NCBI GenBank assembly: GCA_945898275.1
Contig: CAMDHZ010000003.1
Location: 1 to 64,000, forward strand
Source of the DNA: Chitinophaga pinensis
GTDB taxonomy: Bacteria > Bacteroidota > Bacteroidia > UKL13-3
Direction of reading: 5' to 3'
DNA: 64,000 bases
Below the pieces are notes generated by a model. It did not search any database and was not told where the DNA came from. It saw nothing but the letters and a program-made list of their open reading frames with translations. The position numbers and the translations under genes are program-made. Each line of letters begins with the position of its first letter. Position 1 is the stretch's first letter. This document shows positions 27,399 to 30,840 of this stretch, piece after piece.

Positions 27399-29552
27399 TT
27401 ATTCGTAAATATTTTCACTATTTCTATAACCAGCGTTATTTAAGTACCAATCATTATACTGAGTGCCACCGCTGCTCACCCATGTTGCAAACTTCATATA
27501 GGCAGAATTGATATCAGCCTTTTCTATGGGATAATCAAAAGATGCAGGAACATTTATTGCCCAAGGATATCCTCCATCTTTGCTTACATAAGTTGTTCCT
27601 GAATTAACATTGGTATTGTCTGAATAAGTGCCAAATATCGAAGCAGTTGCTTTGTCTGTAGGTAGCTTTCCAGGTAAGTGAACCTCATATCCTCTTCCAA
27701 AACCTGCAGAGCCATTCCAAATAAATGGATTGTATGAACCTAAACCAAAACTTGCTAAACTTACCGTGCCACTCACATTAAATGAAACATTGTAAGTAAC
27801 AACAGAACTTGTTTGTCCAACTCTTGTATTCCATTGGCTCATTTCTGTGCGCATGTCATTGAAAATAATTAATACCGCTTTTGATTGATCCGATTCCAAT
27901 GTTGCACCACTTACCGAACTTACCTGATTTCTATTTACTGGAAATTGAACACCAAATCCATTGTTAAACGCGCCACCAGTGGCTCTTAAAGTGTAAACTG
28001 CTTCTACTTTAACCACATTGTTTGCAGCATTAGTAATCACATTATAGTTATAACCAATTACTACATCATTCAAATCATAATCACCTTTAGATGGCCACAA
28101 ATCTTCAAAAGCAACAGTCGAAGTTCCGTAATTGTTGTTATAAGCCATGCTTGCATCATTTGGATAATCATCATTGTTGTCTGCTACACCATCATTATCT
28201 GTATCTGTAATAGGTGGAACTCCACTACCAATTGTATTACAAGAAGTAACCGGAATATACAAACCACATGCGGCCAATGCTCCATTATTTATAACTCCCC
28301 AATTTGTTTCAATTCCATTTGCATCACAAAATTGAAGCGCGTGTGTAACGGCACCGCCACCATTAATTATTGTTTTATCTGCAACCTTAACAAGTGAAGT
28401 ATTCAAATATCCCTTTAACAATCCATTAATGGTGATATCGTCTGTTTGCAACATGGCACCATTATACATGCCCAATTCACTACTTCCGTTTAATACTGTT
28501 TCATCGTCTACTCTAATTAATGAATAGTTTTTGATAGCACTATTATTATGCAATTCTTTTTTAACCCACAATCTGCAATTATTAATCAATAATCCATTTC
28601 CATTAACCTTTGTATCATCATTAGTTACTATATAATTGTTGTTAGTTGCGGTTACATTGCCATTAATGTTAAAGCTTTTACCCACACTAACTGAACCATT
28701 GTTTGTGAATGCAGAACCTGAATTAAAATTCAAGTCATCTCCAACAGTCATTGTTCCATGATTAGTAACATTACCTCCTGATGCAAAAGAATTGCTTATC
28801 GTTGCTGTTCCATAATTAGTAAAAGTTGAAGAAGTTCCATTTAAATTAACATTGCCAAAATTTGCACTACCTGTGCTTGTTACAATTAAATTAGAACCAT
28901 TGTTTAAGTTACCATTTTGAACCGTAACATTGCTTCCACAAATTCTAATTGTTCCTCCATTAGAATTAAAGCTTATGGTAATATTATTACCTGTTACGCA
29001 AACCACATCACTAGAATTTATGTTCAAATTTTGATTACTTGTGGTAATAGTTTGAGTGCATCCTGTTGTGCAATCAGGTCCACTAGACTTTCCTAACATT
29101 TTTTTGTTTTCGGTTTGAACCGAAATATTCATCACAACAGTTGTTCCATTGATGTTAACTTTTTCCTCATACTTGCTTTTATCTGGAGCGATTTTAACAA
29201 GGTACAATGATTTAACAAAGGTTGGAATGTTGATGGCAGCTTCAAATGCAGTATTGATTCCTAATGAACCCTCTGCAATTAATACACCTCCTTCAGCTGG
29301 ATTAGCAGTATAAACTTCAACTTTGTGTAATACTTTTTCAAAACGAATGTCAGTAGTGGTCAATCTTAACTTAATATCTTTACTAGTCTCCCATTTAAAA
29401 CCTTCAGGTACTTTGATATCAGTCATTTTTTCGGCACTTACTAATTTGCCATCAAAACTTGGCGATGCTTCTTCATTTACTTTCACTAAATCCTTTTTGC
29501 ATGAAACAGCAAAAATGGATAATGTAGTAAGGATTAAAATTAATTTTTTCAT
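27399..29552 (-). CDS. LruC-domain lipoprotein with beta-helix-like repeats
   Basis: The ATG at 29552 gives 717 aa with a lipoprotein signal (FAVSCKK, cysteine 18). An N-terminal domain of about 130 residues precedes a Gly/Asn-rich region of about 200 residues with short repeats such as TNYGTATI, TNHGTMTVGDDL and TNNGSVSVGKSF, which should form a beta-helix. A calcium-binding thrombospondin type 3-like stretch (TDTDNDGVADNNDD) leads into the LruC domain (GDYDLNDVVIGYNY). It is probably on the cell surface. It ends at a strong terminator and appears to be transcribed alone. Confidence 0.88.
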   Translation of the reverse strand: MKKLILILTTLSIFAVSCKKDLVKVNEEASPSFDGKLVSAEKMTDIKVPEGFKWETSKDIKLRLTTTDIRFEKVLHKVEVYTANPAEGGVLIAEGSLGINTAFEAAINIPTFVKSLYLVKIAPDKSKYEEKVNINGTTVVMNISVQTENKKMLGKSSGPDCTTGCTQTITTSNQNLNINSSDVVCVTGNNITISFNSNGGTIRICGSNVTVQNGNLNNGSNLIVTSTGSANFGNVNLNGTSSTFTNYGTATISNSFASGGNVTNHGTMTVGDDLNFNSGSAFTNNGSVSVGKSFNINGNVTATNNNYIVTNDDTKVNGNGLLINNCRLWVKKELHNNSAIKNYSLIRVDDETVLNGSSELGMYNGAMLQTDDITINGLLKGYLNTSLVKVADKTIINGGGAVTHALQFCDANGIETNWGVINNGALAACGLYIPVTSCNTIGSGVPPITDTDNDGVADNNDDYPNDASMAYNNNYGTSTVAFEDLWPSKGDYDLNDVVIGYNYNVITNAANNVVKVEAVYTLRATGGAFNNGFGVQFPVNRNQVSSVSGATLESDQSKAVLIIFNDMRTEMSQWNTRVGQTSSVVTYNVSFNVSGTVSLASFGLGSYNPFIWNGSAGFGRGYEVHLPGKLPTDKATASIFGTYSDNTNVNSGTTYVSKDGGYPWAINVPASFDYPIEKADINSAYMKFATWVSSGGTQYNDWYLNNAGYRNSENIYE

Positions 29553-29684
29553 TTGGTAGTTTATAGTTTCCCATACCAAACAAACTGACTACCAAAAATC
29601 AAATGTTTGTTTTACAGCACTTTAATAATAAACAAGATTCCCGTTTTGAAACAAAAGCAATTGCCCTTTCCAATAATGAAGCAC

Positions 29685-29715
29685 AAAAAAACCCCGCTAA
29701 CTTTCGCTAACGGGG
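29685..29715 (-). terminator. GAAA-loop terminator upstream of LruC gene
   Basis: Read on the minus strand, CCCCGTTAGC pairs with GTTAGCGGGG (two G-U wobbles) around a GAAA tetraloop and is followed by seven T residues. No minus-strand protein gene ends here, which is the main reason to propose an RNA gene. Confidence 0.85.
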
Positions 29716-29756
29716 CATAGCCATGAAAACCTACTGCAATGTTAATTGCAGAAACC
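29685..29756 (-). ncRNA. Candidate 72-nt small RNA or attenuated leader
   Basis: A promoter pattern on the minus strand (29762-29792) is followed by a perfect 7-bp hairpin CTGCAAT-taac-ATTGCAG (29734-29751) and a 10-bp GC-rich hairpin with a GAAA loop and seven T residues (29685-29715). No coding gene lies between promoter and terminator, apart from a five-codon frame Met-Ala-Met-Pro-Arg that stops inside the terminator stem. It may be a free small RNA or a leader whose terminator controls the LruC gene 133 bases further on. Confidence 0.5.
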
Positions 29757-29761
29757 TATCA

Positions 29762-29792
29762 CAATATTAAGTAGATTTTAAGATAATCCAAA
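29762..29792 (-). promoter_or_regulatory. Promoter of the candidate small RNA
   Basis: On the minus strand TTTG (29789-29792) is followed after exactly 19 bases by TAATATTG (29762-29769), one mismatch from TAnnTTTG. The expected start of transcription is about 29756. Confidence 0.5.
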
Positions 29793-29871: not shown

Positions 29872-30840
29872 ATGCATTTTTCCTTCCAACACCCTATTGT
29901 TCCATCCAACCATCATTATCATTTTTCCAATAAGGGCTTGTGGTTAGGTTCATGTTTTGCAGAAAACATAGGAAGTAAAATTATTAACTATCAAATTCCT
30001 GCATGGCTCAATCCCGGTGGAATAGTGTTTAACCCTATCTTAATTTTTAAACAAATCAATTTTGCACTCGGTTCAAACAAAAACCATAATGAGTATATTT
30101 TTGAACGAGATAACTTATGGTTTTCTTACTTATATCATGGTAGTGTTTACGACCAAAACAAGCAAGACTTAATAACGAAAATTGAAGCGATAAACACTTC
30201 TCTCTTGCTGGCAATAAAACAATCAAAATACGTAGTAATTACTTGGGGAAATGCGTGGTTGTATCAATTGAAATCAAATCAATTGGACGTTGCAAACTGT
30301 CACAAACAAGCTCAAAATCTCTTTAGCAAACGTTTGGTTCAACCCGAAGAAATTGTAAAAGAAGCAATGAAAACCATTGGCCTTATGCGTGAAATTAACC
30401 CAGACCTTCATGTTATTATCAGTATAAGCCCAGTAAAGTATTTGAGATGGGGAGCGTTTGAAAACAACCTAGGAAAAAGCAGTCTCTTTTTAGCATTAGA
30501 TTTACTTCAAAAAACCATTAAGGATGTTTCATATTTCCCTTCATTTGAAATCATGCAAGACGAACTTAGAGATTACCGCTTTTACAATTTAGATTTTGCC
30601 CACCCAAATGAAATTGCCATAAATTATATTTGGGATAAATTTAAGCATTGGATGTATGATGAACCAACCTTGAATTACTTGCAAGATTTTGACCAACTGG
30701 TGTTAAAAATAAATCACAAAACACTTCATCCAAGTTCATCGCCGCACCAGACATTTTTAAGCAAACTAGCAAAGGAAATTGAAACATTTAAACTAAAGTA
30801 CCCGCAAGTTTCTTTTGATAAAATTTACAAAACGGTTTAA
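29872..30840 (+). CDS. GSCFA-domain protein
   Basis: The ATG at 29872 gives 322 aa; a TTG two codons earlier is less likely. The N-terminal LGSCFAENIGSKI contains the family's name motif, and a C-terminal segment DFAHPNEIAINYIWDKF resembles the Asp-x-x-His ending of SGNH hydrolases. GSCFA proteins are common in Bacteroidota and plausibly act as esterases or acyltransferases; the substrate is unknown. Its last 53 bases overlap the 3' end of nth on the other strand. Confidence 0.88.
   Translation: MHFSFQHPIVPSNHHYHFSNKGLWLGSCFAENIGSKIINYQIPAWLNPGGIVFNPILIFKQINFALGSNKNHNEYIFERDNLWFSYLYHGSVYDQNKQDLITKIEAINTSLLLAIKQSKYVVITWGNAWLYQLKSNQLDVANCHKQAQNLFSKRLVQPEEIVKEAMKTIGLMREINPDLHVIISISPVKYLRWGAFENNLGKSSLFLALDLLQKTIKDVSYFPSFEIMQDELRDYRFYNLDFAHPNEIAINYIWDKFKHWMYDEPTLNYLQDFDQLVLKINHKTLHPSSSPHQTFLSKLAKEIETFKLKYPQVSFDKIYKTV

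Follow-up and report, generated by a model that had tools for sequence, protein, structure and literature searches.

Does the intergenic stretch at 29685-29792 of the window (the whole 64,000-nucleotide stretch of DNA that was analysed) carry a gene of its own, or does it belong to one of the two divergently transcribed protein genes that flank it? The neighbours are a GSCFA-domain gene on the plus strand (29872-30840; PF08885, E 1.7e-71) and, outside the RNA, an LruC/DUF4842 lipoprotein gene on the minus strand (27399-29552; PF16130, E 3.6e-51). An earlier note on this DNA had proposed either a free small RNA or a leader that ends early and so controls the lruC gene. As judged from the sequence, the stretch is a real, conserved, and uncatalogued small RNA gene of about 74 nt. 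We consider it likely that its product is a free small RNA (sRNA) which acts in trans by pairing with mRNAs, and that its promoter differs by lineage.

All elements of the RNA gene were found on the minus strand (29792-29685). A putative Bacteroidota promoter of the sigmaA type (29762-29792) consists of TTTG (29792-29789), a spacer of 19 nt, and TAATATTG (29769-29762), and agrees at 9/10 positions (p 0.0018 vs. shuffles). The pattern TTTG-N19-TAATATTG alone is not rare in this AT-rich window (7 seen vs. 2.95 expected); a promoter of this type with a terminator (stem of at least 8 pairs, T6) no more than 120 nt behind it is found a single time in the window and is absent from all 60 block-shuffled windows. 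The position of the promoter predicts a 5' end with the unpaired segment UAGGUUU (29752-29758), which holds the first of two AGGUUU copies. Hairpin 1 follows (CTGCAAT-TAAC-ATTGCAG, 7 bp, 29734-29751), and then an open linker (29717-29733; UAGGUUUUCAUGGCUAU / TAGGTTTTCATGGCTAT), which is mostly unpaired in the fold and is the candidate pairing seed. The linker contains the second AGGUUU copy and UUUUCAUGG (29729-29721). An intrinsic terminator with 11 pairs and a GAAA loop (29691-29716; GCCCCGTTAGC-GAAA-GTTAGCGGGGT) leads into a U run at the predicted 3' end (29685-29691); together with this run, the terminator (GCCCCGTTAGC-GAAA-GTTAGCGGGG) extends over 29716-29685. When folded as a 76 nt RNA (29760-29685), the sequence reaches -28.5 kcal/mol (z -4.75), which is equalled by 0 of 200 shuffles; hairpin 1 of the window alone is unexceptional compared to shuffles (p 0.10). 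The promoter, the 7-bp hairpin, and the GAAA terminator had been named in the earlier note and are all present. Its statement that no protein gene covers the stretch also holds, as no plausible coding frame was found across 29685-29792. By sequence, the gene has its own promoter and terminator and contains no coding sequence.

The RNA is single-copy in its own genome, where only one of the 19 matches listed is full length; with one copy in the genome, a repeat or mobile element was rejected. Clear matches were found in at least six further genomes among 60 relatives (E 8.5e-54 to 1.0e-7, among the matches listed), and four weaker matches, which were inspected, are not homologs. A covariance model built from the seven carrier sequences gives 87.8-99.6 bits for these carriers, with a next best match of 45 bits among 64 family genomes. 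In 295 class-wide genomes, it gives at most 45 bits for all except G000 (the genome of the window), G005, and G008. An exact-pattern scan of named genomes (GGTTTC-N10-26-GTAGGTTTTCATGG) returned 25 stretches, 6 of which are the same six relatives and 19 of which lack the terminator hairpin; two matches from Flavobacteriaceae have no second hairpin. No such RNA was found in the 11 viral-contig stretches with the exact 16-base linker.

Conservation of the hairpins in relatives, which the earlier note had proposed as a check, is borne out: the carriers are 7 of the 19 genomes of the genus (G000, G002, G003, G005, G008, G013, and G017), with the RNA at the same locus. The six relatives are all metagenome-assembled (e.g., Bacteroidetes bacterium B1(2017), H1_MAG_00011, E1_MAG_00012, and Tobar12.5m-G26). 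In 10 of the 12 non-carriers, an unfiltered search of the GSCFA neighbourhood gave nothing above 21.4 bits; the other two (G010 and G016) are incomplete, with no GSCFA gene detected. With 12 of the 19 genomes giving no match, the RNA is dispensable. A second match of the model in the genome of the window (G000:C37:465-538, 33.6 bits), which also occurs in G008 and G005, is an ordinary terminator without the linker. The other weak model matches whose DNA was inspected look like generic terminators or chance matches, save where UUUUCAUGG recurs. A match of 45 bits (G029:C17) has TTTTCATGG and a terminator but is located at a different place and has no AGGUUU copies.

GGUUUCUG and CAGUAGGUUUUCAUGG are identical in all seven carriers, as are the 5' segment GGTTTCTG and the linker segment CAGTAGGTTTTCATGG, and each carrier has AGGUUU or GGUUU on both sides of hairpin 1. 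The neighbouring GSCFA proteins of G002, G003, and G013 are only 38-40% identical to that of the window. Across the seven sequences, 96.8% of the cells are paired and 8 of 18 pairs are changed on both sides, values which were reached by 0 or 1 of 500 shuffles; slid versions gave 28.6-50.8%. The terminator contributes 5 of its 11 pairs (with 100% of the cells paired) and hairpin 1 contributes 3 of 7, the counts for this helix being too low because an alignment gap in G005 is misplaced (by eye, CTGTCGC-TTTTA-GCGGCAG is fully paired). RNAalifold, when run unguided, returned the same structure, with 6 two-sided-change pairs by its own count. The terminator has G-U pairs at columns 51-64 in 6 of the 7 sequences, so that only the minus strand fits.

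A FastTree tree computed from GSCFA and the nth-like protein, in which mid-tree branch supports are partly low (0.515-0.684), places G000, G008, G005, and G017 in one clade, with the carriers G003, G013, and G002 standing among non-carriers. Because carriers are scattered in the tree and the place of the gene is constant, this suggests that the RNA gene is old and was lost several times.

A putative sigmaA-type promoter precedes the RNA in G000, G008, G005, and G017 (8-9/10 positions; p 0.0018, 0.004, 0.036, and 0.014, respectively). Sigma54-type sites precede it in the other carriers: TTGGCACGCTGCTTGTA in G003 (12/13 consensus positions, 0/5000 shuffles), TTGGCATAAAACATGCG in G002 (10/13, p 0.0006), and a weaker sigma54-like site in G013 (8/13, p 0.074), in which GG-N10-GC is retained; as the consensus was applied after the sequences had been seen, these p values are only guides. 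The sigma54-like sites stop 11-12 bases short of GGTTTC and agree with the sigmaA boxes in the 5' end that they predict; rpoN, the gene for sigma54, is present in all 19 genomes of the genus. It seems that the promoter type has been exchanged, with sigma54 in some lineages, and that the predicted 5' end has been kept. Such an exchange in front of an unchanged predicted start is in keeping with an sRNA gene that is independent. Sigma54 promoters of Flavobacterium psychrophilum are associated with envelope stress, gliding, and exported proteins in the available part of PMC9723704. In G002 (L092, minus strand), the sigma54-like promoter has the palindrome CATTGATTATCAATG upstream of it, at a distance of about 60 bases from the RNA; this palindrome could be an activator site.

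In the reading which we prefer, the RNA would start near 29758 and would end at the intrinsic terminator (29691-29685). Transcription would proceed from the sigmaA-type promoter in the lineage of the window and, seemingly, from sigma54 promoters in others; as the promoter type differs by lineage, the conditions of its synthesis would vary between lineages and its product would not. It would then act in trans, with its open segments pairing with mRNAs, namely the two AGGUUU copies beside hairpin 1 and above all UAGGUUUUCAUGG. Hairpin 1 would separate the two copies and shield the 5' side, and the terminator would shield the 3' end. Pairing at an mRNA start region would block initiation, and this region is the most likely site because the linker complements CCAUGAAAACCUA and so contains an anti-start-codon. 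GibS and FopS are Bacteroides sRNAs which bind start-codon regions through open seeds (PMC7366714 and PMC11697453, as far as these are available). By analogy, base-pairing with mRNA start regions through the linker would be the most likely mode of action, and the pairing mechanism is plausible.

In target searches, which were short of full genome-wide scope, we found no convincing mRNA target. CCATGAAAACCTAC with up to 2 mismatches was not clearly commoner than the reversed control among the matches listed, and CATGAAAACCT at real gene starts did not recur between genomes among the loci read. Duplex energies at 167 ORF starts gave no preference for the 19 lruC genes (p 0.55). Three copies of ACCATGAAAACCTGGGATTACC (in G000, G005, and G017) lie within what we take to be the mnmA coding sequence, not at its start.

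That these searches gave no target would agree with a free RNA which does not pair with mRNAs. The AGGUUU copies and UUUUCAUGG would then be sites for an RNA-binding protein, which is titrated or delivered. AGGUUU or GGUUU is doubled around hairpin 1 throughout, and binding of a protein by the doubled AGGUUU would explain the conservation equally well. Moreover, UUUUCAUGG is common to unrelated 3' ends, as would be expected of a shared protein rather than of a shared mRNA target. We know of no such protein for AGGUUU or UUUUCAUGG, and this counts against protein sites. So does the pairing with mRNAs that is described for Bacteroides sRNAs with open conserved segments in the available parts of PMC7366714 and PMC11697453. 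We thus consider it rather unlikely that the RNA serves a protein in place of mRNA pairing.

The gene order in the carriers bears on two further readings, which connect the RNA to lruC. Its place beside GSCFA is constant, with lruC present or absent on either side. The order is fullest in G003 (GSCFA (divergent), lruC, RNA, lruC). G013 and G002 have only the upstream lruC, with none downstream of the RNA; G017 has a 43-residue DUF4842 remnant upstream and no downstream lruC; in G000 and G008, lruC is found only downstream. The contig of G005 ends about 350 bases past the RNA, which leaves the downstream gene out of view. The remnant of G017 (L089:2607-2732) matches PF16130 with E 3.7e-11; here, lruC decayed and the RNA stayed. 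Genomes of the genus have 0 to 11 DUF4842/LruC matches each, and at the GSCFA locus the genes can stand in tandem (three copies in G018). Carriers have 6-11 such matches, save the fragmentary G017 (1 remnant), and some non-carriers have equally many.

According to the first of these readings, the RNA is a 3'-end module (hairpin, UUUUCAUGG, terminator) which stabilises or ends transcripts and is a remnant of the 3' end of an upstream lruC. The RNA indeed begins about 100-110 nt behind an lruC gene in G003, G013, and G002 and comes after the DUF4842 remnant in G017, and similar modules occur elsewhere directly behind rpsT, phasin-like, and OmpA-like genes. However, the preceding gene is divergent in G000, G008, and G005, where the RNA has its own promoter. 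Promoter-like sites are found before the RNA in all lineages, if weakly in G013, and GGUUUCUG in the 5' part shows no more variation than the linker. A mere 3'-end module is thus quite improbable.

The second reading makes the RNA an attenuator leader for the lruC gene behind it. While lruC follows the RNA on the same strand in G000, G008, and G003, and the terminator sits 139 nt ahead of the lruC ATG in the window, no lruC is found downstream in G013, G002, and G017. In the fold, no antiterminator was seen, and the minimum-energy and centroid structures each contain both hairpins. In addition, the lruC genes own a shared upstream element, TTCAAAAYGGGA, which is common to those behind the RNA. 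In the window, the lruC gene's own element (TTCAAAACGGGA, 29639-29650, minus strand) is located behind the terminator of the RNA, and the same element precedes lruC in G008 and G003. G005 has the element, too, with no gene start found behind it in the available stretch. Far from the RNA, TTCAAAAYGGGA is also present ahead of other SCKK-lipoprotein genes, at a distance of 117 nt, and it appears to be a common regulator or promoter element. The early-ending lruC leader of the earlier note is thus highly improbable, and its alternative proposal of a free small RNA is favoured: the structure is conserved, promoter-like sites exist in every lineage (weak in G013), and the RNA persists without an adjacent lruC. 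As a separate observation, LruC/SCKK-type lipoprotein genes of several genomes have TTCAAAAYGGGA 86-117 nt ahead of them (L087:18234, L090:8185, L185:93, L204:83, and L189:3552).

A very short peptide, MAMPR (minus strand) or MKTYC... (plus strand), has next to no chance: both frames exist in the window, and the five-codon frame of the earlier note is among them (ATG GCT ATG CCC CGT TAG on the minus strand, extending into the terminator stem), but its length and residues vary in relatives (5 codons in G000, G005, and G017; 2 in G013 (MV-stop); longer in G003 and G002), and the plus frame, of 15-25 codons elsewhere, is only 6 or 7 codons long in G005 and G002.

Some of the weak model matches had TTTTCATGG ahead of a terminator. 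Among 395 class genomes, 43 have TTTTCATGG with a loose terminator pattern behind it, at 45 places in total when overlapping rows are merged; 22 of these places have a stem of at least 6 pairs at the U run. The control word TCATTTTGG, which has the same dinucleotides, gave 22 such places, each in a different genome, and the stem is present at 2 of them (Fisher p 0.0012). In a reduced set, which excludes the RNA of the window (3 rows) and a further 8 rows whose group or place was already known before testing, the ratios are 11/34 vs. 2/22 (p 0.056), and at least one of these 11 (G400) is within a long open frame. The places read include 3' ends of genes which, from our own reading of the translations, we take to be rpsT, rplQ, rpmA, phasin-like, and OmpA-like. 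A hairpin ends at most about 12 bases before the word in the genus of the window, in family f2, at the phasin-like, rpsT, and OmpA-like genes, and in G227; no hairpin was found directly before the word in G121, G426, G088, G281, G174, and G184. The combination of hairpin, UUUUCAUGG, and terminator was observed directly behind unrelated genes at rpsT (L046, L049, and L280), OmpA-like (L279), and phasin-like loci (L068, L069, L072, and L278) and in G227 (L269).

Three genomes of family f2 (G264, G146, and G379) carry a free intergenic element with a hairpin of different sequence, (T)TTAGGGCGTTTTCATGGCTGTT, and a terminator (L075:1493-1575, L274:1518-1602 (minus), and L275:1472-1558). GGTGACYT is found about 34-35 nt before this hairpin in all three. 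The element is possibly a distant relative of the RNA of the window with yet another promoter type.

We regard it as conceivable, if doubtful, that the RNA is a branch of a class-wide Bacteroidia module (hairpin, UUUUCAUGG, terminator) with one common partner and one post-transcriptional network. The module would occur as free sRNA genes (in the genus of the window, and in f2 with UUAGGGCGUUUUCAUGGCUGUU between hairpin and terminator) and also as mRNA 3' ends (rpsT, phasin-like, OmpA-like). The common partner of the nine-base word would be start codons as CCAUGAAAA, or one RNA-binding protein. Because there was one control word and the test word was chosen afterwards, the class-wide module is only a lead, not a result.

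The window has no match in Rfam 15 at the gathering threshold; among nine weak matches at E up to 10, the best by bits is PyrR (19.6 vs. a threshold of 54). Qrr of Vibrio and GlmY/GlmZ are sigma54-dependent sRNAs behind -24/-12 promoters. The apparent likeness is restricted to this promoter and to the G003 and G002 copies, the copy of the window being of the sigmaA type, and no kinship is claimed. Like FopS and GibS of Bacteroides thetaiotaomicron, as described in the available parts of PMC11697453 and PMC7366714, the RNA of the window is intergenic and has its own promoter, an open conserved segment, and a terminator hairpin. Start-region pairing, a feature of GibS and FopS, is proposed for it by analogy. 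The promoter type differs between GibS and FopS, as it does among the carriers. A further trait by which the FopS/GibS group is recognised is the binding of an RbpB-type RNA-binding protein. Unlike FopS, which has 14 copies, the RNA occurs once, and unlike in both, its proposed seed lies between two hairpins, with a second short copy at the 5' end. The window had no Rfam match to FopS or GibS; the FopS structure is reported as deposited (PMC11697453, available part), and its model may be absent from the copy searched. Rfp18 of Flavobacterium psychrophilum is likewise a conserved intergenic sRNA of a Bacteroidota genus with a strong predicted structure, in a species with both sigma54 (-24/-12) and sigmaA promoters; it differs in that pairing is predicted via its third stem-loop, the comparison being by description only (PMC9723704, available part). 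6S-flavo, Flavo-1, Bacteroid-trp, Bacteroidales-1, and Bacteroides-1 are structured Bacteroidota RNAs, too (PMC2864571, available part), and none of them matches the window at gathering scores or is among the nine weak matches. In the literature searched, no paper was found that describes this RNA or motif, and searches for the words UUUUCAUGG, TTTTCATGG, and CCATGAAAA gave none on a Bacteroidota RNA among the matches listed. The RNA is of a known kind, but its family is represented neither in Rfam 15 nor in the literature searched.

The host is uncultured, and the RNA belongs to freshwater Bacteroidia. To our knowledge, few small RNAs of Bacteroidota have been described outside Bacteroides and Flavobacterium. 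Little is yet known in Bacteroidota about RNA chaperones and about how targets are chosen, and if the UUUUCAUGG module should prove true class-wide, it would offer a direct handle on post-transcriptional regulation in this phylum. For the RNA itself, near-frozen open segments combined with an exchangeable promoter at the same start would point to a regulator which has been rewired and whose output has been kept.
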